From assembly GCF_900104845.1 (NCBI RefSeq), contig NZ_FNSR01000002.1, positions 1,922,001-1,986,000 on the forward strand: a stretch of 64,000 nt of DNA, read 5' to 3'. Below the pieces are notes generated by a model, which was given only the letters and a program-made list of their open reading frames with translations, was not told where the DNA came from and did no database searches. This document shows positions 39,149-53,187 of the stretch, one piece after another. A program made the position numbers and the translations under genes. How positions within the stretch are numbered: the stretch's first letter is position 1; every line of letters starts with the position of its first letter. Source of the stretch: Paraburkholderia caballeronis (GTDB lineage: Bacteria > Pseudomonadota > Gammaproteobacteria > Burkholderiales > Burkholderiaceae).

Positions 39149-39583
39149 TTAAATTGAATCGCCTTCGTTTTCGATTGCGCGCAAATCCCTGACCTCCCAA
39201 AACAACGGTAAAGCGCACGAAAACAGTAAAATAAGATAAAAAGGGAACAACAAAGCTAAACCATCGGGGTTACCCGAAAAGACTGCGAGGTACACAGCCA
39301 ACCCGATATAGATGGTTGACAACGCCACAGCGACGATTACGAATCTTCTCCATAGCTGTCCACCATTTAACTGCGGCTGTCCTGCGGCACTTCTATACCC
39401 CTTATACAACTCGAAAAGAAAGACAAAGAGGAACCCAATAGCCACGAACGCAATCTTGCCGGCGATAGCCTTCCAGTTGTTGCCCCGAAACAGGGATACC
39501 GTGACGAGAACAACAGCTATGTGGAAAAAAAGAGGGCTTCTCCTGGAAGCTCCCGAAATCGCACACCTGAACGCCTCGAGCAT
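39149..39583 (-). CDS. Multi-TM membrane protein, candidate CDI immunity protein
   Basis: A 144-residue protein with about four TM segments (FFHIAVVLVTVSLF, IAFVAIGFLFVFLF, FVIVAVALSTIYIGLAVYLAVF, LLFPFYLILLFSCALPLF). Its start codon overlaps the stop of the preceding small membrane gene by one base (TAATG). It lies just downstream of an orphan CdiA-CT whose toxin part is hydrophobic. The local sequence is much more AT-rich than the flanking chromosome. RGNNWKAIAG aligns with RGAGWRPALAG of the preceding protein, suggesting duplication. Function inferred from position. Confidence 0.6.
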   Translation of the reverse strand: MLEAFRCAISGASRRSPLFFHIAVVLVTVSLFRGNNWKAIAGKIAFVAIGFLFVFLFELYKGYRSAAGQPQLNGGQLWRRFVIVAVALSTIYIGLAVYLAVFSGNPDGLALLFPFYLILLFSCALPLFWEVRDLRAIENEGDSI

Positions 39584-39816
39584 TAATTTTCGCCCTCATC
39601 CATCTTGTTACTTTTCCTGATCTGACGAAGCTCCCGTAGCATCGCATAGGTAACCAACACAAAAAGCGAGGCATACATCGGTATTCCGGCTAACGCAGGG
39701 CGCCAACCGGCACCCCGTAGCTCTGATATTGCAACAACAACAGCAACGACGGCAAAGACGGAAATGTATGCCTTTGCGTAACGGGTAATGAACCTACGTC
39801 TCGCCTGAGCTTCCAT
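39583..39816 (-). CDS. Small two-TM protein, candidate CDI immunity protein
   Basis: A 77-residue protein (MEAQARRRFITRYAKAY...) with two TM segments (ISVFAVVAVVVAISEL and PMYASLFVLVTYAML) and a charged C-terminus. The start at ATG 39816 (alternative ATG 39822) overlaps the end of the orphan CdiA-CT frame, an arrangement typical of toxin-immunity pairs. It is directly coupled to the next membrane gene. Protection against the orphan tip is inferred. Confidence 0.6.
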   Translation of the reverse strand: MEAQARRRFITRYAKAYISVFAVVAVVVAISELRGAGWRPALAGIPMYASLFVLVTYAMLRELRQIRKSNKMDEGEN

Positions 39817-41432
39817 AATCATTTGTGTGATTGCGAATTCTGAATGGCTTGCTGAATTGGTCCAGCAGCCCCTGCATAATCTGATTGACAGCATTTCCAA
39901 TTGGCGACGGTAGCACTGCTTTTGCCAATGACTCAGCGCCCGTCGTCGCGGTGGCTACCCCTGCGGTCAGATCAGGATTATTGCCGGTCATGCCCGCGCT
40001 GCCGAATGCCGCGACGCCGTTGACAGCCGCGTTGTAGCCATTAGCGGCGATCTTTCCGGCTGTTCCCATTGTGGCGATTGCTTTGTCTCCTATCGCAAAT
40101 GGGGCACTCAGACCACCAACTATCCCGGCAATGTACGAGTTTGTAAAGTTCGGCGCATCCGGGCTTGCCCCTGTCTTGTAATTAACGTAGCTTCCTGCAT
40201 AGTCGTATACACCAGCAAGCACTGCAGCGGTCACGGCCTCCGATCCGGGCGCCACTACAGCAGCAGCAGGCACCCCGTACATGGCACCCGTCTGCATGTT
40301 GTTCGATGCGATGGTGGCGTTCGCCCCGTCCGCATTGACCGCAGTCATGGCCAGCGAAGGATCGCAGGCCGACAGACCATTACACACCTTCGAGAGGGCG
40401 TTCTTTTTCGGATCTAGCATCTGGTTGTGCAGCTCTACCGACGAACCCGTTGCCGCGCCTGCTGTGCCACCAACAAGCGCACCGCCCACACCCGCTGCCA
40501 CGTTCGCGGCCAAGTTACCCAGCAGGTCCGAGCCTGTTTCCGAAGCTACCCCCTTCGAAATGCTGTCCAACTGGTCCGCCATTTTCGAGGCAAGACCTGC
40601 GCCCACAGCGCCGCCCGCCGCTGTAAAGACACTGCCTCCGCCAAGTCCACCAATAAGCGCGCCGCCCGCTGCCTGCAACAGGGCGCGGCTGTCGCCGCCT
40701 TCATCCCACGCGGCAGCCGTAGCAGCGTCGGTGGCCGTATCGCGCTTGTTGTCGGCATACGCCCCGATACCCTGCGCCACGACTTGGCCCGCCGCCTGCG
40801 CGGCCTGCATCGTATCGGCCTGCTGCGAGAGGATATTGTTCACATCGGGCGTTGCCGACACGGTCCCGTTCGTGTTCGTCGTATCACGGCTCAGGCCCGA
40901 GACGTCCTGCGTCTGCCCGGCCTGGTTCGTGATGTTGATCGAGCCCGCACTGACCGCGCTGCGCGTGGTCGAAGTCTGGTCGCCGTTGTCGTTCTGCGAA
41001 ATCATCGGCGATATGCCCGGGGTGCCGCTAACCGAGCCTGGTCCGAGCGCCTTGCCGGTGTTACCGACGCCTACGCCCGCGCTAATACCATTGCTCGACG
41101 CGCTGTAATGCGACTGGTTCTGGATATCGCTATAGGTCAGCGTACCGGTCGTCAGGCTGTTTTGCGACGGATCGGCGGTACTGGAAATCACCGCGCCGGT
41201 CAGGTTCGTATTGCCCTTGACGTTGACATCGAAGCCGCCGCTGCCAGCATTGATGGCCGCCTGCTCGTTGACCTGCGCGTAGTTACTATCGGCGTGGCCG
41301 TTCTGCGCGCTGAAGCTCGCGCTGCCACCGCCCTGGCTGATACTGAACCCGCCTCCCGCGCTGCTCTGGTGCGCGGTGCTAACCGTCGTGTCCTGGACGC
41401 TCTCGATATTCAGGTTGCCGCCGACTTGTGCG
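39794..41432 (-). pseudogene. Orphan CdiA-CT module 2 (5'-truncated CdiA fragment)
   Basis: An in-frame fragment of a CdiA without start, signal or TPS domain. It begins in the repeat shared with the full-length CdiA (NLNIESVQDTTVS region), runs through the pre-toxin region (GGALIGGLGGGSVFTAAGG) and reaches SSVELHNQ, a variant of the (E/Q)LYN boundary. The tip of about 200 residues then opens LDPKKNALSKVCNGLSACD and continues as an Ala/Gly/Val-rich hydrophobic domain suggestive of a membrane-acting toxin. Two membrane-protein genes follow. It could serve as a reservoir for tip exchange by recombination. Confidence 0.75.
40765..41432 (-). repeat. Direct repeat of the cdiA pre-toxin region, copy 2
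   Basis: About 670 bases nearly identical to 43547-44212, including long runs without mismatch around the region coding for SGTPGISPMISQNDNGDQ. Same orientation. It is the homology through which the orphan tip could replace the main CdiA tip. Boundaries by eye. Confidence 0.85.
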
Positions 41433-41473: not shown

Positions 41474-41608
41474 TCATCCTGCAATAACTTTCACAATAAT
41501 TGCGATTGCGATAAGCACAAAAACGACCCCAACAAACATTTTATAAGAGCTCTTTTGCTCGGGCGTCATCTTCTTCCACTCATCGTCTGTCGGACCCGGA
41601 ACGGTCAT
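41474..41608 (-). CDS. 44-residue single-TM protein, candidate immunity to orphan tip 1
   Basis: The frame reads MTVPGPTDDEWKKMTPEQKS, then SYKMFVGVVFVLIAIAIIVKVIAG. A charged N-terminal half is followed by one TM helix. It starts 7 bp after the stop of orphan CdiA-CT 1. Its W-KK-M-T-x-x-Q-K-x-x-Y pattern aligns with Y-EK-L-S-x-x-Q-K-x-x-Y of the 45-residue protein at 42498-42635, which follows the homologous tip of the full-length CdiA. The pairing makes both likely real genes and candidate immunity proteins. Confidence 0.6.
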   Translation of the reverse strand: MTVPGPTDDEWKKMTPEQKSSYKMFVGVVFVLIAIAIIVKVIAG

Positions 41609-41615
41609 AACGTTC

Positions 41616-42191
41616 TCACTTTGAGTTAATAATAGGAGTGGAGTGACTCCAAGGAGTCACTGACACAGAGATCGGGCCAGGGGTTGCCACGCCAACCTCA
41701 AGCGCTGTAGGGCCGCCATAGGCATGAGTGATCGCAACCACCGCATTTGGGCCCACGGGAGTCGGAACTGAAAGCATAAACTGATTTCCATCCCTATTCA
41801 TGAAATTGTTCGTGGCTTGAGCGCCTGACGCACCGAAAATCCAAGCCAACGTAGCTGTAGCGCCGGGAGCAAAAGATGCTGGCCGGAATGACTGACTCAC
41901 GCTATAGGATAAATATGGCGTCCCATCCGCAGTATTCGTAGCTAGGCCGGCTCCAGCTGTCATGGTACTGCCGCCGACCGTAACGTAATCAGGCCCAATT
42001 GCATTGATCGGTGACGCCTGAGCATTTGCGCCAGTCGCATTCATTTGCGCCGTCATCACCGCTTCGTTGCATGGTCCCGTTGCGGTGCAGGAAGATGGCA
42101 CCAGGCTATTCTTGTGGTTCATCTGGTTGTACAACTCTACGCTCGACGCCGTGGCCGCGCCTGACGTGCCGCCCACGAGCGCGCCGCCCAC
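41616..42191 (-). pseudogene. Orphan CdiA-CT module 1 (5'-truncated)
   Basis: A 191-codon frame with no start of its own, entering within GGALVGGTSGAATA and passing SSVELYNQ (the Burkholderia-class boundary motif). It continues into a tip of about 160 residues with CTATGPCNEAV, DYVTVGGS, a hydrophobic FAPGATATLAWIFGASGA segment and ITHAYGGPTALEVGVATPG. The tip is homologous to that of the full-length CdiA (GISHAYGGQTSIEYGVSFP). Its 5' end is cut at 42192 by a SymE-containing segment. Confidence 0.75.
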
Positions 42192-42227
42192 GCGCTGACC
42201 ACAACCAGTTCACTTGGAGAACCGATC

Positions 42228-42451
42228 ATGGCTGATACCAATCTTAATGTATGCGCCGCTCATCCCGCGCGGCGCGTCACCATCCAGCAGTCGTGGCGGT
42301 ACCGGCGCATCAATGCGCGAACCCGCACCGAGCCGCCGCTTTATCCGTGGATCAAGCTCTCGGGCGCTGGCTTGAGCTCGCGGGTTTCGAGGCCGGGCAG
42401 CAGGTGAGGATCGAAGTCCAGCAGGGACGGCTTGTCATCACGCACGAGTGA
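42228..42451 (+). pseudogene. SymE-family toxin gene with a frameshift
   Basis: The ATG at 42228 has GGAG upstream. It encodes MADTNLNVCAAHPARRVTIQ, then PPLYPWIKLSG; the rest of the family signature (RWLELAGFEAGQQVRIEVQQ, then GRLVITHE) follows in a shifted frame, so one base is missing near 42370. SymE proteins are AbrB-fold SOS-induced toxins, normally controlled by antisense SymR RNA. It sits on the opposite strand between two CDI modules. Confidence 0.7.
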
Positions 42452-42461
42452 ACGGCACTGC

Positions 42462-42498
42462 AAGCAACAAACCCAGCTCAAGGCTGGGTTTGTTGCTT
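42462..42498. terminator. Bidirectional rho-independent terminator
   Basis: A 16-bp perfect stem (AAGCAACAAACCCAGC and complement) with a 5-nt loop lies between the convergent SymE remnant (+) and the 45-residue membrane-protein gene (-), touching the latter's stop codon. T-rich arms are present on both strands. Confidence 0.8.
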
Positions 42499-42635
42499 CA
42501 ATGTGCCAGAACGAGTTTATAAATCCAGATGCCGACAATCAGAGTAAATCCAATAACGATGGCAATCCAGTAGATTGTCTTTTGACCTTTACTCAGCTTC
42601 TCGTATTGGCCCGGTTTGAACGATGGTCCAGCCAT
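42498..42635 (-). CDS. 45-residue single-TM protein, candidate CdiI immunity protein
   Basis: The frame reads MAGPSFKPGQYEKLSKGQKT, then IYWIAIVIGFTLIVGIWIYKLVLAH: a short basic N-terminus and one TM helix. It begins 10 bp after the cdiA stop with AGAGGGG as ribosome site and ends at a strong terminator. In CDI loci the gene directly after cdiA is the immunity gene. It is homologous to the 44-residue protein after orphan tip 1. Only membrane location and homology are visible; immunity function is inferred. Confidence 0.65.
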   Translation of the reverse strand: MAGPSFKPGQYEKLSKGQKTIYWIAIVIGFTLIVGIWIYKLVLAH

Positions 42636-42645
42636 ATCGGCCCCT

Positions 42646-45600
42646 CTACTTTTTCATGTCAAACCCATAACTAATGGGATTCACTGCGGTACCTGGCGGG
42701 AAGCTAACACCATACTCAATGGAGGTTTGTCCACCATACGCATGACTGATCCCACCACCTGCACCAATGGCAGGGAAGCCAGGAACAGGTACGAACGTTG
42801 ACGCATTAGCACCGCCACCGGCCAGGTACGAGCTAGTACCTTCTGCACCGCCTCCACCAAGAATACCCCCGAACGTCACGGAAAGCCCGGGCTTCAACGA
42901 ATACGTGGGGATGGGCTTACCAAGCGCCCAACTTCCAAATGTATCGCCGTTGTGCAGATTAATTACTACGCCGCCTGAAGCAATATAGATATTGCCTTGG
43001 ATAGACACATAATCTGGCGACATTGCTCCAAGTGCAAGTTGCGCGTTGTCTCCCTGCGCCTGAATTGCCGCATTCAGAACCGTTTCGTTGCACTGCCCGG
43101 TTGCCGGACACACCTGCGCAACCAGGTCATTCTTCTTGCGGTGCGCGGACTGGTTATACAGCTCGACGTTCGACGCCGTGGCCGCGCCCGCTCCACCACC
43201 GACCAGCGCACCACCAACACCCGCCACAACATTCGCAGCCAGATTGCCGAGCAGTTCGGAACCCGTCGCCGATCCCACGCCCTTATAGATATCGTCCAGC
43301 TGCTTCGCCATCCCGGCCGACAGCCCCGCACCCGCCGCGCCGCCAATCGTGCTGAACGCGCTCCCCCCGCCAAGCCCACCGATGAGCGCACCGCCTGCGA
43401 TATGCGCCAGCGTCCGGTTGTCGCTCCCTTCGGCCCACGAATCAGCCTCGGCCTGATACTGCGCGGCTAGCGCCGTATCGCCAGCCTTCGTCGCAGCATC
43501 CGCCTGGGCCTGCGCTTCCTGTTGCTTCGTTTGAGCATAGTCACCAATACCCTGCGCGACGACCTGGCCCGCCGCCTGCGCGGCCTGCATCGTGTCAGCC
43601 TGCTGGTTGAGGATATTGTTCACGTCCGGCGTTGCCGATACCGTACCGTTCGTATTGGTCGTATCACGGCTCAGGCCCGAGACGTCCTGCGTCTGCCCGG
43701 CCTGGTTCGTGATGTTGATCGAGCCCGCACTGACAGCGCTGCGCGTGGTCGAAGTCTGGTCGCCGTTGTCGTTCTGCGAAATCATCGGCGATATGCCCGG
43801 GGTGCCGCTAACCGAGCCTGGTCCGAGCGCCTTGCCGGTGTTACCGACGCCTACGCCCGCGCTAATACCATTGCTCGACGCGCTGTAATGCGACTGGTTC
43901 TGGATATCGCTATAGGTCAGCGTACCGGTCGTCAGGCTGTTCTGCGACGGATCGGCGGTACTGGAAATCACCGCGCCGGTCAGGTTCGTATTGCCCTTGA
44001 CGTTGACATCGAAGCCGCCGCTGCCAGCATTGATGCCCGCCTGCTCGTTGACCTGCGCGTAGTTACTATCGGCGTGGCCGTTCTGCGCGCTAAAGCTCGC
44101 GCTACCGCCGCCCTGGCTGATACTGAAACCGCCCCCAACGCTGCTTTGATGTGCGGTACTGACGGTCGTATCCTGGACGCTCTCGATATTCAGGTTGCCG
44201 CCGACTTGCGCGGTCACCTGGTTACCGTTGACCTGCGAGCCGATGATATTGGTATTGCCGCCCGAAACGACAGTCACGCTGTTCGCGCCGGTGACGTGCG
44301 AGGCGTTCTGGATCGCAGCGTCGCTATTGCCGTTGCCGTGCGCGTTGGACATTGACGCCGAGACGCCGAAACCCTGCGTGCCGTAGGACACGCCGACGCT
44401 CGCGCTGCTCGATTTATTCGTGCTGGCGGTCGTATCCGTATTCGTGATGTTGACGATGTTCACCTGATTCTTCGCGGCGAGCACGACGTCGTTCGCGCTC
44501 ACGTTCGAACCGGCGATTGTCAGGGTGCCGCTGCCAGGCGTGCCGTCGCCGGTCGCGACGAAAGCCGCGGTGCCGCCCGCCTGAACGTTCGAACCCTTCT
44601 GCGTCGTCTGATCCTCGGTGAACGTATTCTTGCTCTGGCTACTCCCGAAACTCAGTTGCACGCCGATGCTTGGATTCGGACCGCCCAGCGAGCCGCCCAT
44701 GAGACTCGCGCCCGCGATTGCCGCGTCGCCCACCGCCGCAATCGCATGCAGCGCCTCGGCGCGGCCATTGCTGTTACCGCTCGCGAGCGCCTGCCCCTGC
44801 GATACCGCGCCGTTGATCGCGTCGCCCACGCTACCCGACAGGCCGAGCGTGAAACCGCTTTGCTTCGTCTCCTGGGTTTCGTCATGGTGCGAGGTGCCGG
44901 TGGCCGCATCGATGATCAAGTTGGCCGCCGTGCCCGTGACGTTCTGGGCTGCCACGAGATCGCTGCCCGTCAAGTGCAGGGTGTTGCCCGCCTGGATCGA
45001 GAGATTGCCATTCGTGCTGCCCACGAGGCTGCCGTTATTCGTCACGCTGCTGTCGTTCGCCGTCTGCTTCGTGTCGCTGGTGCCGTAGTTGAGGCTAAAT
45101 CCACCACCGCTCATCGCACCGAAGCCCGATTTCTTTTCCTCGTAGGACGAACTGCTCTGACTCGTATCCTGGGTCGTGGTGATGTTCACGTCATGCACGG
45201 CGCTCAGCGATACATCGTTCGTCCCGACGATCGTGCTGCCCGCGACGTTGATATCCTTGCCGCTTGAGATCGACACGCCGTCCGCCGAAATCATGCTCCC
45301 CTGGTTCAGGGTCGTGGTTGTATTGCTCGAACTCGATACCTCTTTACCGCTGACTACATTGCTGTGGCTGTGCTGCTCCTGCGAATTGTCGACATAGGTT
45401 GCGGTCGCCGCGCCGATATTGACGTTGTTCGTTGCCGCAAGCGTCGCCGTCCCCTTGTCGAGATTGATCGAGCTGCCGGTAATGTTGATATCGTGGCCCG
45501 ATGCGACGGTCAGCGAATTGCCTGAATTGAGCGTCGTGCCCGTCAGCGTATCGGCGGAGGTATGTAGCGATTCCGAGTAGCTGCCATGGCTGTCGCTACC

Positions 45601-48600
45601 CGAACTGTTGTTGTCGATGGTCGAGGTCGCCTTCGCCGCCTGGAGCGTGACGTCGCCCCTCGCTACAACCGTCCCGCCGCCGCCGAGATTAATATTCGCG
45701 CCGGTCGCGGTCAGGTTGCCGCCCACGCCGATCTGCGAGACGCCGCCCACGTTGACGGAACTGCCGGTCGTCTGGTTGATGTCGGTATTCGACACACCGT
45801 TCGCGCCCGCGACCACCTTGTGCTCGCCGGTCTGCACCGAACCGATATCGTAGTTGCCGCCCACGGCCATGTCGAGGTTGCCGCCCACGTTCAGGTTGCC
45901 CGCGTTCTGCTCGACGTTGCCGCCCGTTACGATGGCCGCGTTACCCGTCACGTTCAGGTTCGCGATGGGGCCGAGCGTCGTCGTGGTCCGTGTCGCGCCC
46001 GTCGCGCTCACCTGGTTGACGGTATTCGCCGCGGTATTGAGGATCAGGTTGCCGCCCGCGTTCAGCGCGAGGCTCCCGGCGTTCACGGTGGCCGAGGTCA
46101 GGTCGACATTGCCCGTCGTCGCGAGCGACATGAGGCCGCCGCTTTGCAACGTACCGAACGCGTTGTTGATCTGCTGACCCTGAATAGAGAGCGTATTGCT
46201 CGCCTGTACCGTCCCGCTGTTATTGAAGGTCTGCGTGTTCTGCAGATCGATGTCGGTCGCCGCGATCAGCGGGCCGTTCATGTTCTGCTGGCTTGCCTTC
46301 GCGAGATAGACGACCGGCACGAGTACGGACTGACCGTCGACGACTTCGGTCTGCATGATGACGACATTGGTCGTGAGAGCCGCGACCTGGTCGGGCGAGA
46401 GCGCCATGCCAAGCGGCAGGTCAAGCGACCCGGCGAGTGACGCGCCCGCCGCCATCAGCGCCTCATACATCGACTGGACATCGGTATAGGGGCCGAGTAC
46501 GGCCTTGCCGGTGAGCGACGTAATCTCGTTCAGTACGAGCTGCTGCTCGTACAGGCCGTCGCCGAGGCGCTTCTCGACGCTCTGCGGATTCAGCCCAAGC
46601 TGCTGGAGATAGTAGTTGCTTGAGATGAACGACTTCTGGCTCGTAAAGGCCGGGTTCGTCTCGATCAGGTATGGCGCGTTCGGCGCGGTATCCCGGTGGA
46701 ACAGGCCGCCCTGGGGAATCGTCAGGTTGCTCAGGACATTGACCGCCGTCGCGCTCGCGATGACGGGATTAACGAGTCCCGAGCCACCGTTGACCGAAGC
46801 GGCTCCGCCTTTCGACCCGCCCGCGCTGCCGCTGACCCCGCTGGCGGTCACCCCGCCGAGCGACTGACCGGGGACCAGACCGAGCGAAGGAACGCCAGCA
46901 TTACCCGCCGTATTGTCGATATTGACGCCCGTACCGGAAAGCGAGCCGCCCGCGACGAAGGTCGACTCGTAGCTGGGCAACGCATAGGCGCGGATGTCAG
47001 CCGGCGCGACTTGGTAGCCGCCCGGGTTGGAGGTCACGAACGTCGCGTTGCCGAACGGCAACTGCCAGTTGTGTTCGGTGTTGTCGTAATTGTTGTAGTG
47101 ATACTGGCCGGAATAGGTCAACTGCACGCCGGGCGCAAGCTGCCCGCGCCAGCTATTCTGGTCGAGCGTCACGGGTGCGGCGATGTTGCCAGCCGCAGCA
47201 ACGGCGCTCCAGTAGTTCTGGAACGTGCCGACGTTCGACGCATCGAGGTTGCCCCCGGCGATGATCTGCGCCTGCGGACTGATGCCCGTAATCAGGTTCG
47301 CGAGTGCCACGCCCGTATAGGTCGTGTACTGGTAGGTGCTGTTCCACTGGCCGCCGTGCGGCGGCTCGATCGGCATGCCGCCTGGCTGGGCCTGCAACGC
47401 AATGATGGTGGCGGGATCGTAGTTAGAAGCATTCGGATTGAACTGGACGCCCATGACCTGCGGATTGCCCGGGCCGCACGCCGCCATGTCAGCGGCCGCG
47501 CAGCCAGACAGGCTGATACCCAGCGCCTGGATAAGCGGAGAACTCGCGTCCAGCGGCTCCACGTAGGCCCCGTCGGTCATCATCACGCGCCGCGTATTCG
47601 TGACCTGGGTCGCGTACAGCCCCATGTCGCCCGCCGACTGGATCAGCGCCGACTGGTTGCGGATGAGGTTCGCGTTCGTATAGTTGCCGCTCGCGTCCTT
47701 GCCGCCCGCCAGCACGACCTTACCTAGACCATAAATCGCGGTCGTCGCCTGCGTATCGGTCGCCGTGGTGTCGTCGCGGTTCTCGATGTCGGGCGCGAGG
47801 ATTTCGAGCAGGCCGTTACTGTCGGTCGCGCCAATCAGCGCGGTCGGGCCGACGTTCGTGACGGATTGCGTCGCATTGAGCGAGACGCTACCGCCGACAA
47901 TCGCCCCCGTATTCTCAAGCGTGTTCGAGTGCGTCGTCAGCGTACCGCCCGCCGTCATCGCGCCGCTGTTGGCGATGTCGTTCGCGTTGATGTCGAGATT
48001 GTCGGTCGCCTCAAGCGCGCCGCCATTCGCGAACGTGCCGGGTAGCGTAAAGGAAAGGTCGTGACCGGCGTTGAACGCGAAACCGGCGGTCGGTGCGAAG
48101 TCGCCCTGTACATTGATTGCGACGTCGTTCGCCGCGCTATAGGCGCCGCCGCCCGTCAGCGTCGCCGCGTTGACGGTCAGGTTATGGGTCGCGCCGATCT
48201 GACCGTTCGTGTTCGTGATCGCGCCGGTCGTCGTGATCGCAACGTCACCGGTCGGACCGGCGAAACTGCCAATCACGCCGCCGCTGTTGTCGACGGTATT
48301 CGCCTGGACGTCGACGCTTGCGCCGCTGACCTGGCCGCCCTGCGTGTTGGAGAGGGCAGCGGTATTGACGGCGACGTCGCCGTTGCCCGTCACGCCGCCG
48401 CCGCTGTTGGTGATCTGGCTACCGCCCTGGACGGTTGTATTGCCTGTCCCGAGGTTGCTGACAAGGCCGTTCGTGTTGTCGATGGCGGCGGCCTGAACGC
48501 CGAGCGTACTCGTATCGCCCGCTGCGCCCGTACCGGACTGGATCTGGCCGTTCGTATTCGTCAGCGCGCCGCCGCCCGCGAGCGCCAGGGATGCAAGCGA

Positions 48601-51597
48601 CCGTATCGCCCCCCGCGTATTGTTGATATTGCCCGCGACGCTCGCCGCGATATTGCCCTGCGCAGCGAATACGCCGCCCGCGTTATTCAGGCTCCCGGCC
48701 TGCGCCGCGATCTGGCCGGCAGTGATGATCTTTCCGCCGACGTTCGAGAGGGACCCTGAGCCGTTGCCCGGCGTGATCGTCAGCGTGCCTGTTCCTGCAT
48801 GCGTAATCGTGCCGCCGTCGTTATCGAGCGTGGCAGGGGCCAGCGTCAGGTCCGTGCTGTTCGTCTGGAGCGTACCGCCGTTCGAGTTGTCGAGCGTATT
48901 GCTGACGTTGACGCTCATCGGCGACGCGCCATACTGCGTGATTGTGCCGCCGTGGTTCAGTAGGTCCGTGGCCGTCAGCGCGAGCTGGTTCGCCTCGATA
49001 TCGCCGCCGCTATTGTCGAGCGTGGAGCCGATTGCGAGCGCGAGATCCGGTGCGACGATCGAGCCGCCGCTATTGGTCATTGACCCGCTCTGGATCGTCC
49101 CCTTCGAGGCCGCGCCGACCTCGCCGCCGTTATTGTTCAGCGATCCGCTCGCGAGGCTCAGATCGGCATTCGAGAGCAGCTTGCCGTTTGCATTGTTCAG
49201 CGCGCCGCCGACTGTCGCGGTCACGCCCGTCTGGCCGAGAACGAAGCCCGTCGCGTTGTCGAACGAGCTGGTCCCGGCGACGATCTTGCCGTTGCTCTGG
49301 ATGGTACCGCCCGCGTTCGAGATTGACCCCGCGCCATTGCCCGCATCAAGCGTTAGCGTGCCGGTACCCGCGTGCGTAATCGTTCCGCTATCGTTGTCGA
49401 GGGTAGCGGGTGCAAGTGTCAGGTCCGTACTATTGGTCTGGATCGTGCCGCCCGCCGAATTGTCGAGCGTGCCGGATACCGCGACGGTCATCGGGCCGCG
49501 ACCCGTTTGGGTAATCGTTCCCGCGTGATTAACGAGGTTTGCTGCGTTGAGCGAGACCTGCGCGGCCTGCGTCGCGCCCGAGCTGTTGTCGAGCGTCGTC
49601 GCGCTCGCGCTCACCGTCTGGCCTGCCGTAATCGAGCCGCCATTGTTGGTCAGTTTCGAACCGGCGTTCACCGTCGTATTGCCGGAAGCGCCGAGCGAGC
49701 CGCCGCTGTTATCGACCGATTGCCCGCTCACCTGGAGGTTCGTCTGCGCCGATACCGTGCCATGGTTGGCAATGCTCGCGCCTTGCAACGTGACGCCGCC
49801 ATTGCCGCCGATGACGCCGCCCTGCGCGCCGGTCGCGGTTGTACCCGCCGCGTTCGTCAGCGCACCCGTCGTCGTGACCGACAGGCCGTCGCCGTTCAGT
49901 GACGTAATGCGGCCTGCGGTATTGTCGAGCGATGTTCCCGACACCGACAAACCGGCTGCGCTTTGCATCGTCCCCTGATTGTTCGCAATGGCGCCGCCGT
50001 TGACCTGCATCGCGCCCTGCGAGACCATCGAACCGGCCTGGTTTGCGAGCTGGCCGGATGCCTGCGCGATAAACGGACCTTGCGACGAAATATCACCGTT
50101 CTGGTTCGACAGGTTGCCCGCGTTGAGCGCGACGCTGCCGCCCGCCAGCGAGCCGTTGTCGTTATCAAGCATACCCGCCGCATTCGCCACGACCGAGCCG
50201 CCTGCGCTCGTCGTCGCGCCTGCGAGGTTCAGGTCGCCAGCGTTGGCCGTCAGCGACAGATTGCCGTTCGCCGCCGTCTCACTGCCCGCGAGATGGACGC
50301 CACTCCCCGAGAGGGCGGCATTACCGCCGGCTACATTCTTGCCGGTCGCCGTGAGCTGCCCGGTCGTCGAAACGTTGAGGTCGCCCGAGTTGGCGAGCGA
50401 GCCGTCGTTATTCACGCCCGCGCCGAGTATACCGGTCGACTCAAGGGACCCGGCATTAATGGCGGTGTTCCGCTGTGCCGCAAGCGTCCCGCTATGGGTC
50501 ACCGCGCCCGTCGAGCCGATGGCAGTATTCTGCTGCGCGTAGACGGTCCCGGAATTCTGAACGCTCGCCGCGTTGACGCCAACGTTGCCCGTGGCGGTCA
50601 TCGTGCCCGACTGGACAAGTTGCCCCGCAGTCGTCAGCGTCAGATCGCCAGCCTGCGCGGCAATCGTGCCGGCATTTGCCACCCCGACGCCGTATTCGTT
50701 GCTCGTCAGAACGATTCGATTCGCGTACATTCCGCCGAGCTGCGAGACGTCGATGGAGACGGCGGGGGGCGCTCCGCTACCGCCGACCGGTGTCGGCGTG
50801 AGGCTCGCGTAGTCGATATTGTTCGAGCCGGTTGTTACGTTCAGGGCATTCGCATAAATCGCCGCGTTGACCTGTACGGCACGTGCCAGAAGATCGACCT
50901 CATCGATATTTGATGCATTGAGGCCCGCGCCCTGGACGGTAATCGAGCCACCCGTTACGTTAAAGCCGGTCAGGTTGCCGCTACCGTCGATCAGCGGATT
51001 GCCAGTCGTTAAAATTCCTTTCGACGTATTGATAAAGCCGCCGCCGTCGATCACCAGGCCGGAAGAATCTGCTATGACGACAGCGGCGGTCTTCGCGCCC
51101 GCAACTTCCACATACCCTCTCAATAACGAGGGGTTGTTGCTGTTGACCTGATTAACGATAATCTTCGCGGCATCGTTCGGTCCGAAATTCGGATTGCCGG
51201 ATATCTGCCCCGCGAGTTGCGTATTCACATTAACGGGCGAATTGTTCAGAATCGCGCCGCTCTTGCTTACGTCGAATTGTGAATATGTGTTAAGTGATAC
51301 ACCCGCACCCGAGGGTTTGTTCACGTTAACCTGGGGCAGGCCATTTGCCGTACTGATAGCGCTCGGCGCGTGCGCGCCCGACGGCACGATCTGCGCGTCG
51401 GAGAGAGCGGGAGCTGCCCCAAGCAGTACCAGCGCGGCAAACGCCGCGTGACGCATGGCGAAAAGCGTAATCGGTCGACGCGCGGGCGACGGCCCGGTTT
51501 GCCCTTGACCTGCACTATGCCCGATTGCTGTTTCTGCGACTGCGACGAGCATCCCCCGGAGCTTGCTAAAAAAAAGCCGGTAACAACGGTTATTCAT
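42646..51597 (-). CDS. cdiA: CdiA/BcpA-type contact-dependent inhibition protein (TpsA)
   Basis: A 2983-residue two-partner-secretion exoprotein. Residues 1-26 are an extended signal peptide region (YRLFFSKLRGMLVAVAE), followed by the signal core (AALVLLGAAPALSDA). The TPS domain spans about 70-190, with long FHA-type filament repeats rich in N, G and T after it. The pre-toxin region (GGALIGGLGGGSAF) ends at NVELYNQ (about 2810-2816), matching the Nx(E/Q)LYN boundary of Burkholderia CDI proteins. The last 167 residues are the toxin tip. A 45-residue membrane protein follows as candidate immunity. Export needs a CdiB partner, and the only one nearby is truncated. Confidence 0.9.
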   Translation of the reverse strand: MNNRCYRLFFSKLRGMLVAVAETAIGHSAGQGQTGPSPARRPITLFAMRHAAFAALVLLGAAPALSDAQIVPSGAHAPSAISTANGLPQVNVNKPSGAGVSLNTYSQFDVSKSGAILNNSPVNVNTQLAGQISGNPNFGPNDAAKIIVNQVNSNNPSLLRGYVEVAGAKTAAVVIADSSGLVIDGGGFINTSKGILTTGNPLIDGSGNLTGFNVTGGSITVQGAGLNASNIDEVDLLARAVQVNAAIYANALNVTTGSNNIDYASLTPTPVGGSGAPPAVSIDVSQLGGMYANRIVLTSNEYGVGVANAGTIAAQAGDLTLTTAGQLVQSGTMTATGNVGVNAASVQNSGTVYAQQNTAIGSTGAVTHSGTLAAQRNTAINAGSLESTGILGAGVNNDGSLANSGDLNVSTTGQLTATGKNVAGGNAALSGSGVHLAGSETAANGNLSLTANAGDLNLAGATTSAGGSVVANAAGMLDNDNGSLAGGSVALNAGNLSNQNGDISSQGPFIAQASGQLANQAGSMVSQGAMQVNGGAIANNQGTMQSAAGLSVSGTSLDNTAGRITSLNGDGLSVTTTGALTNAAGTTATGAQGGVIGGNGGVTLQGASIANHGTVSAQTNLQVSGQSVDNSGGSLGASGNTTVNAGSKLTNNGGSITAGQTVSASATTLDNSSGATQAAQVSLNAANLVNHAGTITQTGRGPMTVAVSGTLDNSAGGTIQTNSTDLTLAPATLDNDSGTITHAGTGTLTLDAGNGAGSISNAGGTIQSNGKIVAGTSSFDNATGFVLGQTGVTATVGGALNNANGKLLSNADLSLASGSLNNNGGEVGAASKGTIQSGSMTNSGGSIVAPDLALAIGSTLDNSGGDIEANQLALTATDLLNHGGTITQYGASPMSVNVSNTLDNSNGGTLQTNSTDLTLAPATLDNDGGTITHAGTGTLTITPGNGSGSLSNVGGKIITAGQIAAQAGSLNNAGGVFAAQGNIAASVAGNINNTRGAIRSLASLALAGGGALTNTNGQIQSGTGAAGDTSTLGVQAAAIDNTNGLVSNLGTGNTTVQGGSQITNSGGGVTGNGDVAVNTAALSNTQGGQVSGASVDVQANTVDNSGGVIGSFAGPTGDVAITTTGAITNTNGQIGATHNLTVNAATLTGGGAYSAANDVAINVQGDFAPTAGFAFNAGHDLSFTLPGTFANGGALEATDNLDINANDIANSGAMTAGGTLTTHSNTLENTGAIVGGSVSLNATQSVTNVGPTALIGATDSNGLLEILAPDIENRDDTTATDTQATTAIYGLGKVVLAGGKDASGNYTNANLIRNQSALIQSAGDMGLYATQVTNTRRVMMTDGAYVEPLDASSPLIQALGISLSGCAAADMAACGPGNPQVMGVQFNPNASNYDPATIIALQAQPGGMPIEPPHGGQWNSTYQYTTYTGVALANLITGISPQAQIIAGGNLDASNVGTFQNYWSAVAAAGNIAAPVTLDQNSWRGQLAPGVQLTYSGQYHYNNYDNTEHNWQLPFGNATFVTSNPGGYQVAPADIRAYALPSYESTFVAGGSLSGTGVNIDNTAGNAGVPSLGLVPGQSLGGVTASGVSGSAGGSKGGAASVNGGSGLVNPVIASATAVNVLSNLTIPQGGLFHRDTAPNAPYLIETNPAFTSQKSFISSNYYLQQLGLNPQSVEKRLGDGLYEQQLVLNEITSLTGKAVLGPYTDVQSMYEALMAAGASLAGSLDLPLGMALSPDQVAALTTNVVIMQTEVVDGQSVLVPVVYLAKASQQNMNGPLIAATDIDLQNTQTFNNSGTVQASNTLSIQGQQINNAFGTLQSGGLMSLATTGNVDLTSATVNAGSLALNAGGNLILNTAANTVNQVSATGATRTTTTLGPIANLNVTGNAAIVTGGNVEQNAGNLNVGGNLDMAVGGNYDIGSVQTGEHKVVAGANGVSNTDINQTTGSSVNVGGVSQIGVGGNLTATGANINLGGGGTVVARGDVTLQAAKATSTIDNNSSGSDSHGSYSESLHTSADTLTGTTLNSGNSLTVASGHDINITGSSINLDKGTATLAATNNVNIGAATATYVDNSQEQHSHSNVVSGKEVSSSSNTTTTLNQGSMISADGVSISSGKDINVAGSTIVGTNDVSLSAVHDVNITTTQDTSQSSSSYEEKKSGFGAMSGGGFSLNYGTSDTKQTANDSSVTNNGSLVGSTNGNLSIQAGNTLHLTGSDLVAAQNVTGTAANLIIDAATGTSHHDETQETKQSGFTLGLSGSVGDAINGAVSQGQALASGNSNGRAEALHAIAAVGDAAIAGASLMGGSLGGPNPSIGVQLSFGSSQSKNTFTEDQTTQKGSNVQAGGTAAFVATGDGTPGSGTLTIAGSNVSANDVVLAAKNQVNIVNITNTDTTASTNKSSSASVGVSYGTQGFGVSASMSNAHGNGNSDAAIQNASHVTGANSVTVVSGGNTNIIGSQVNGNQVTAQVGGNLNIESVQDTTVSTAHQSSVGGGFSISQGGGSASFSAQNGHADSNYAQVNEQAGINAGSGGFDVNVKGNTNLTGAVISSTADPSQNSLTTGTLTYSDIQNQSHYSASSNGISAGVGVGNTGKALGPGSVSGTPGISPMISQNDNGDQTSTTRSAVSAGSINITNQAGQTQDVSGLSRDTTNTNGTVSATPDVNNILNQQADTMQAAQAAGQVVAQGIGDYAQTKQQEAQAQADAATKAGDTALAAQYQAEADSWAEGSDNRTLAHIAGGALIGGLGGGSAFSTIGGAAGAGLSAGMAKQLDDIYKGVGSATGSELLGNLAANVVAGVGGALVGGGAGAATASNVELYNQSAHRKKNDLVAQVCPATGQCNETVLNAAIQAQGDNAQLALGAMSPDYVSIQGNIYIASGGVVINLHNGDTFGSWALGKPIPTYSLKPGLSVTFGGILGGGGAEGTSSYLAGGGANASTFVPVPGFPAIGAGGGISHAYGGQTSIEYGVSFPPGTAVNPISYGFDMKK
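42649..43149 (-). other. CdiA C-terminal toxin tip (CdiA-CT)
   Basis: The 167 residues after NVELYNQ. The first about 45 (AHRKKNDLVAQVCPATGQCNE at their start) share spacing and two Cys with both orphan tips and may be an entry domain. The remainder is Gly-rich (ILGGGGAEGTSSYLAGGGA, GISHAYGGQTSIEYG) and related to orphan tip 1. No nuclease motif is recognised. A membrane-acting toxin would fit the TM-type candidate immunity protein. Confidence 0.6.
43547..44212 (-). repeat. Direct repeat of the cdiA pre-toxin region, copy 1
   Basis: The part of full-length cdiA just before its pre-toxin region; about 670 bases nearly identical and co-directional to 40765-41432. Boundaries estimated by eye. 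Confidence 0.85.
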
Positions 51598-51847: not shown

Positions 51848-53187
51848 GGCAGGCTATTGAAAAACCTCTCGCACCGGTCACCCATGCGTAAGAGGTAAAC
51901 GTTGAAAAAAAGAATCGAGCAAACCTGAGGCAGAAACGATGCGCGGAGCGGATGGCTACACCGAGTCGATGTTCACCGTGACGAAGCTGGATGACTTCGT
52001 GCCGGCAAACCATCCTTTGCGGCCTATTCGGACGTGGCTGAACGAAGCGCTCAAGCGCATGGACGTGGTGTTCACGCGCAGGTACGAGAGCGACGCGAAA
52101 GGCGGTCGTCCGAGCATCGCGCCGGAGAAGCTGATTCGCGCGTTGTTGCTCCAGGTGCTGTACTCGATTCGCAGTGAACGCATGCTGATGGAACAGATTT
52201 CGTACAACATGCTGTTCCGATGGTTTGTCGGCCTGGCGATGGACGACGCGGTGGGGGACCACTCGACGTTCAGCAAGAACCGCGAGCGACTGATGGCCCA
52301 TGACGTCATCGTGGGCCTGTTCAATGAAACGGTCGAGATAGCGCACGCACGCGGCCACCTGTCGGGCGAGCACTTTAGCGTAGACGGCACATTGATCCAG
52401 GCATGGGCTGGACAGAAGAGTTTCGTGCGCAGGGACAAGTCTGACGACGAGACCCCACCGGATGGCGGTACCCGCTCGAAGGAGAGCTGGCACGGCGAGA
52501 AGCGCAGCAACGAAACGCATGAGTCGAGCACGGATAGTGAAGCGCGGCTGTTTCGCAAGAGCCGCTGAACTGGGGCGCTGCTGTGCTACGTCGGCCACGT
52601 GCTGACTGACAACCGGCATGGCCTGGTGGTGAACGCCCAGGTGACGCAGGTCAACGGTACGGCTGAGCGCGATGCCGCGGCCGACATGCTTGCCGATGCT
52701 GCGCGTCTGGCCGATACGCCCATCACAGTCGGTGCCGACAAGAATTACGACACGGCGGGATGTGTCGCCACGTGCCGCATGCATCGCGTCACGCCGCACG
52801 TTGCGTAGAACGACGGCCGAGCGGGTGGTTCGGCAATTGACGGACGCACAACCCGCTGGGCCGGCTACGCGATCAGTCAACGCAAGCGCAAATGCATTGA
52901 ACAGGTGTTTGGTTGGGGCAAGACCGTTGGCCGGATCCGTCAGGCGGTGTATCGCGGTCGTGAGCGGGTCGAGCAGTTGTTCATGCTCACGCAGGCGGCC
53001 TATAACCTCACGCGCATGCGAACGCTCGCCGGGAAAACGGCATAGAAGCGCAAATCGATGAGGAGACGGCATTGATTCCACCTGAATTAAGAATTCTCGG
53101 CATCAAATCGGCATGAAGCCGAACCGGCGCAACGGCTTACTCGAATGCCGGGCCGTGCGTCAGCGAGGGTTATTTCAACAGCCTGCT
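51848..53187 (+). mobile_element. IS5-like insertion sequence, inactive
   Basis: An element of about 1.34 kb bounded by 25-bp imperfect inverted repeats: left 51848-51872 (GGCAGGCTATTGAAAAACC start) and right 53163-53187, 20 of 25 positions matching. It contains a DDE transposase interrupted by two in-frame stops. No convincing target duplication is seen at the ends. It separates the CDI island from a truncated SDR gene. Confidence 0.8.
51939..53045 (+). pseudogene. IS5-family-like DDE transposase with two nonsense codons
   Basis: One continuous frame of 369 codons. It opens MFTVTKLDDFVPANHPLRPI after a short lead (DUF772-type N-terminus). Later motifs are FSVDGTLIQAW, VGADKNYDT, SQRKRKCIEQVFGWGK and EQLFMLTQAAYNL. 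TGA at 52566 and TAG at 52806 (position of a usual Gln) interrupt it; no frameshift is needed to join the three parts. Transposition would require a helper in trans. Confidence 0.85.

Follow-up and report, generated by a model that had tools for sequence, protein, structure and literature searches.

Introduction

The Ntox22 toxin domain was described in 2012 as mostly beta, with a D, D, H, E, H signature, predicted to be a ribonuclease (RNase) relying on two histidines and delivered by a type V secretion system (T5SS; FilH); in the parts of that survey on which we draw, its entry names Ralstonia and Burkholderia phymatum as hosts and carries a '-' for immunity (Zhang 2012, PMC3482391). The Ntox25 toxins of contact-dependent growth inhibition (CDI) systems were first predicted to be RNases and, according to the sections of the article cited here, later proved to disrupt membrane potential, with AlphaFold2 (AF2) models that show a beta-barrel and with Tse4 placed in the same comparison (PMC11630599). 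Here we describe a stretch of 64,000 nucleotides from Paraburkholderia caballeronis (contig NZ_FNSR01000002.1, positions 1,922,001 to 1,986,000; hereafter, the window), in which two genes for 45- and 44-residue proteins each follow an Ntox22 toxin tip, one at the end of a complete CdiA protein and the other in an orphan module of the CdiA C-terminal toxin region (CdiA-CT). Our reading, to which we assign a probability of about 0.74, is that these small proteins with one transmembrane helix neutralise the upstream Ntox22 tips, which would act as membrane barrels resembling the Vap proteins of Rhodococcus equi.

Two Ntox22 tips are each followed by a small gene

The locus comprises the following features, in coordinates of the window:

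42498-42635, minus strand: small gene 1, 45-aa single-transmembrane protein, putative immunity protein for the CdiA tip
41474-41608, minus strand: small gene 2, 44-aa single-transmembrane protein, putative immunity protein for the orphan tip
42646-51597, minus strand: cdiA, 2983 aa, with ESPR, TPS domain, haemagglutinin repeats (PF13018, PF05860, PF13332, PF05594) and Ntox22 tip
42646-43059, minus strand: core of the cdiA Ntox22 tip, without the second His; eight-stranded AF2 model
41616-42191, minus strand: orphan cdiA-CT module, 191 codons, carrying an Ntox22 tip (core 41616-42029) that has an eight-stranded AF2 model

Each of the two tips exceeds the curated cut-off of 25 bits for Ntox22 (PF15527). 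The orphan tip scored 91.6 bits (E 5.2e-26) in the Pfam scan and 92.8 bits in the genome search, and the C-terminal 201 aa of CdiA scored 46.1 bits (E 6.6e-12) in the Pfam scan; Ntox22 was unlisted when full-length CdiA was scanned, and the genome search gave the CdiA tip 48.3 bits. In the Pfam scan, Ntox25 (PF15530) was unlisted at E <= 1 for either tip, and PDB sequence searches with the tip and small-protein profiles returned nothing credible (best E 0.53 and 0.066). The initial annotation had called the two tips homologous and had placed each small gene behind a CdiA-CT; the homology is borne out by these matches, and the second tip turns out to belong to an orphan cdiA-CT module and not to the end of a complete CdiA. 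Both small frames lie where that annotation had put them, at the spacing of 7-10 bp that it gave: the upstream frames stop at 42646 and 41616, leaving gaps of 10 bp and 7 bp. The shared spacing motif that it had noted before the transmembrane helix is likewise exact in both proteins (Y-E-K-L-S-K-G-Q-K-T-I-Y in one, W-K-K-M-T-P-E-Q-K-S-S-Y in the other) and is followed by one hydrophobic segment.

Chance open reading frames (ORFs) were rejected as an explanation on three lines of evidence, the third being the co-divergence of tip and small protein described below. The window has 199 stop-to-stop frames of 150 codons or more, and a strongly transmembrane ORF of 38-60 aa at -5 to +20 bp was found after only two of them, the two tip frames. 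Additionally, the ratio of nonsynonymous to synonymous polymorphism (pN/pS) across five groups of close relatives, comprising 21 small genes, was 0.19 overall in frame (0.15-0.22 per group) and 1.21 and 1.57 in the two alternative frames, revealing protein-coding selection. This signal comes from the groups and not from the comparison of small gene 1 with its P. lycopersici relative, since that pair differs by two nonsynonymous and no synonymous changes.

The small gene accompanies the tip across genomes

PF15527 was found in 14 of 146 relatives (56 genera), all in the genus of the window, at 16 places. One place (L016) is cut by a contig end and hence could not be examined; at all 15 others, including the window's two and one behind a broken tip, the small gene follows the tip. 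At L017, the small gene begins at 951, behind a tip piece whose last position is 939. A second set of 25 loci, fetched by one tip peptide pattern and thus covering only tips with that pattern, came from Paraburkholderia, Cupriavidus, Caballeronia, Ralstonia, Burkholderia, Xenophilus and a metagenome-assembled genome, with seven loci on contigs already represented in the first set. Small-gene sequence lies directly downstream of the tip in 25/25, its frame apparently broken or cut short in three (L038, L040, L042). One of these loci, in Xenophilus azovorans (L038:2404-4560), carries tandem Ntox22 modules, the first with an intact 42-aa small gene and the second with a frame-broken one.

From the opposite direction, a profile of 15 small proteins, run against 144 genomes of the genus, identified 41 places with E no higher than 2e-10 (48 rows, of which seven with E 5.7e-5 to 0.07 were dropped). 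At 36 of the 41, an Ntox22 tip or what remains of one ends no more than 35 bp before the small gene, a count that leaves out one match 1084 bp away belonging to the previous module and that uses tip and small-gene profiles built partly from the sequences scored. Only the C-terminal part of a tip remains upstream in seven of these 36. A small gene that persists beside dead tips is what immunity predicts, as a toxin helper should decay with its toxin; some small genes beside dead or absent tips look damaged or cut themselves. The initial annotation had staked its proposal, that these are miniature immunity proteins, on the small frames recurring with this tip family in other genomes, and they do (15/15, 25/25 and 36/41).

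Over all loci, 35 of 37 intact tips of less than 95% identity are accompanied by the small gene (E < 1e-3), with one of the 35 genes cut short at 38 aa and another lacking the usual start; the remaining two are a tip followed by a frame-broken copy (E 2.8e-3) and the L042 tip, which has no small gene. This count, made with the same partly self-derived profiles, is not independent, some loci having been fetched via the small gene; those from the 146 relatives and the 25 loci are.

The pair also extends beyond close relatives. A diverged tip from a different family within the order (L019; 39% to the window CdiA tip) has a 43-aa member 9 bp downstream, and the Massilia violaceinigra Rhs protein WP_099883090.1 ends in an Ntox22-like tip overlapped by 4 bp by a 50-aa member that is absent from the gene table; the pair therefore occurs on two delivery scaffolds. 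Wider searches, with the window's own genome counted, found the tip in 4/399 genomes (order, Pfam model, one below cut-off), 3/399 (order, own profile) and 2/369 (class). Searching plasmids with the CdiA tip and phages with the orphan tip yielded nothing, and the small gene was unlisted in the two plasmid gene tables inspected, which are incomplete. Finally, pairwise distances among tips and among small proteins are correlated (Mantel r 0.69, 34 pairs, 0/5000 permutations as high). Judged from these sequence comparisons, the two small genes are, with high confidence, immunity partners of the Ntox22 tips.

A family of small proteins with one transmembrane segment

The 33 members that we compiled are 41-57 aa long (mean 45), and each has one transmembrane segment, preceded by a basic segment whose typical motif is [WY]-x-x-[ML]-[ST]-x(3)-[KR]-x-x-Y. 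By the positive-inside rule, the more positive flank of a helix lies on the cytosolic side. As Lys and Arg together are more numerous before than after the transmembrane segment in 33/33 members, an N-in, C-out orientation is indicated. Neither window protein has an above-cut-off Pfam or NCBIfam match, and scans of 22 members gave scattered weak matches: four Pfam families in one member each (best E 5.1e-4, Cortexin) and NCBIfam TIGR01583 in two (best E 0.0043). A PHROGs scan of the two window proteins gave phrog_251 for one (E 0.0093). Among 5.8 billion proteins, 66 homologues were found at E <= 0.01, most of them unnamed and the others called 'hypothetical', apart from three annotated as 'cell division protein FtsL'. 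The two small genes thus very probably belong to a new putative immunity-protein family, and it is plausible that proteins of 41-57 residues are among the smallest CDI immunity proteins.

The tips are predicted to fold as Vap-like barrels

In AF2 models, both tip cores are all-beta, with eight strands and only short helices, and they show the arrangement that defines Vap proteins, a predicted eight-stranded barrel with a helix between strands 4 and 5. The match to Vap structures stands out only with VIA-align, in whose alignments identity is 3-7%; no Vap family was found at E <= 1 in the Pfam scan of the tips, and nothing in a viral structure library matched at E <= 0.001.

Surroundings of the locus

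No TpsB family was found among 20 frames scanned around the cdiA locus, and PF03865 (ShlB-type) occurs at three places in the genome, all outside the window; export of CdiA would therefore need a distant CdiB. Just upstream of the cdiA start lies a transposase frame with a DUF772 domain (51939-52568, plus strand), whose insertion may have split cdiA from a cdiB. A 678-bp direct repeat, 94.7% identical, has one copy at 40755-41432, on the orphan-module side, and the other at 43535-44212 in the 3' part of cdiA, and it could possibly allow recombination of orphan tips onto cdiA, as a substrate for tip exchange. A third orphan cdiA-CT (39794-41191, minus strand) has an unrelated hydrophobic Ala/Gly-rich tip and is followed by hydrophobic frames at 39583-39900 and 39149-39583; neither of these two frames has an above-cut-off Pfam or NCBIfam match, and the whole module (39149-41191, minus strand) may encode a helical membrane toxin together with a membrane immunity protein of its own. 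The remnant of a SymE-type toxin gene (42251-42451, plus strand; PF08845, E 1.9e-10), its frame apparently broken, is convergent with small gene 1.

Interpretation and alternatives

We infer immunity, a membrane target and inhibition within the membrane. Contact delivery by CdiA or Rhs would bring the Ntox22 domain to the target cell, where it would sit on the inner membrane as a small eight-stranded Vap-like barrel and dissipate ion gradients, presumably by conducting or by disordering lipids; in the producer, the small helix in the inner membrane would block insertion of, or conduction by, the cognate barrel. Membrane action of the tip is likely, although the support is indirect: a membrane-embedded partner, the loss of the proposed RNase residues and the predicted Vap-like barrel. 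More tentatively, and with somewhat less than even confidence, Ntox22 may be a Vap-fold membrane-permeabilising interbacterial toxin against which a single transmembrane protein of 41-57 residues is complete and specific immunity.

Several observations weigh against this account. For five of the 41 small genes, the 771-1200 bp of upstream DNA holds no tip or only that of the previous module. Behind two distant tips (L042:1998-3054 and L080), the place of the small gene is taken by a protein of 145 aa and one of 121 aa, respectively, each with an N-terminal transmembrane segment, perhaps other partner types for related tips. A below-cut-off Pfam match (L020) also lacks the small gene and appears to be due to chance. 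Common vertical history explains part of the Mantel correlation, and the conservation of the tips, with Glu invariant in 36/36 and the first His nearly so, would also suit an enzyme. Foldseek alone gives a weak result, with VapG at E 9.4e-4 (TM-score 0.40/0.46) and fluorescent proteins next. Membrane activity is itself uneven among Vap proteins, VapB and VapN being weaker in the part of the source cited (PMC10100859). Lastly, AF2 models are predictions, and a shared fold is no proof of function.

The strongest alternative, though an unlikely one, is that Ntox22 is the metal-independent cytosolic RNase predicted in 2012, in which case the small protein would still be immunity, its basic segment binding the toxin and its helix serving only as an anchor. 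The D, D, H, E, H signature and two-His prediction, as given in the passages cited (PMC3482391), speak for it, as do the retention of the Glu in 36/36 tips and of the first His in 34/36 and the charge-based topology, which puts the N-terminal segment of the small protein in the cytosol. With the 2012 residues assigned to alignment columns in this analysis, all five were found in the orphan tip, but the CdiA tip is without both D and the second H. Among 36 tips of less than 95% identity, the first His is present in 34, but the second is present in only 26 and absent in ten, the window CdiA tip included, and two tips (L019, L089) lack both and are each followed by the small gene. The two conserved catalytic His of a metal-independent RNase are thus not found, and a two-His RNase was judged unlikely. 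The predicted fold, moreover, resembles Vap barrels, and immunity proteins are described as cytoplasmic and globular, with all but a few conforming, in the portions of the 2012 survey used here (PMC3482391).

Slightly less probable again is a tip that is no ionophore but a Glu/His-dependent periplasmic or envelope enzyme or binding protein, blocked by the small protein at the membrane face. The invariant Glu and nearly invariant His would agree with this, as would the pairing of the two distant tips with N-terminal-transmembrane proteins that have a soluble part. Small additional genes can occur in Burkholderia-type CDI loci (bcpAIOB), with bcpO between bcpI and bcpB. That the small gene is such a BcpO-like accessory of the delivery locus, or a toxin helper without a role in immunity, is highly improbable, as it tracks the tip and not the locus, stands also behind the Rhs-borne tip, occurs beside C-terminal tip parts (7/41) or without its own tip in reach (5/41), and lies in a window that holds none of the genomic ShlB-type PF03865 genes and, in the 20 frames around the locus, no TpsB family that could mark a bcpB.

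Comparison with known systems

In the literature searched, which leaves most subscription papers outside, findings on an Ntox22 immunity partner were not found. The small genes supply a putative partner where the 2012 entry was blank and define a family of 41-57-residue putative immunity proteins, mostly unnamed or 'hypothetical' among their homologues. The tips agree with the 2012 description in the model match of both and in T5SS (FilH) delivery, and differ in having a dedicated one-transmembrane partner, unconserved catalytic columns, a predicted Vap-like fold and a wider host range (Cupriavidus, Caballeronia, Xenophilus, Massilia Rhs). There are thus strong grounds to doubt the two-histidine RNase prediction, which is repeated in a 2023 review, in the part of it seen.

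Like CdiI, the small genes lie directly downstream of a cdiA-CT and co-vary with tip type. Imm-CdiI has two transmembrane helices in the relevant part of the survey by Zhang 2012 (PMC3482391), in contrast to one in this family. EC93-type ionophores likewise combine a membrane-acting CdiA-CT, a role only proposed for the tips here, with a system-encoded immunity protein, but their domains are described, in the sections cited, as predicted five-helix bundles, unlike the all-beta tips (PMC11630599). Closer are the Ntox25 toxins, also CdiA-CTs first predicted to be RNases and modelled by AF2 as beta-barrels, for which disruption of membrane potential is known; the window tips differ in their family assignment and in a partner of about 45 residues with just one helix, the two folds being set side by side by description. 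A search of 200 genomes for Ntox25 returned no sequence, but no control gave a signal either.

The link that we propose between a CDI toxin domain and the Vap barrel lies in predicted fold likeness to the R. equi proteins (VapD 4csb, VapB 4cv7, VapG 5aeo), sequence kinship not having been found, and the R. equi Vaps exert their action on host vacuoles and not, as proposed for the tips, on bacteria. If the mechanism holds, one short helix that switches off a membrane toxin would be a very small system in which to study the evolution of membrane-protein specificity; and if Ntox22 and the R. equi Vaps indeed share both fold and permeabilising activity, one type of barrel would serve the killing of rivals and the neutralisation of vacuoles.
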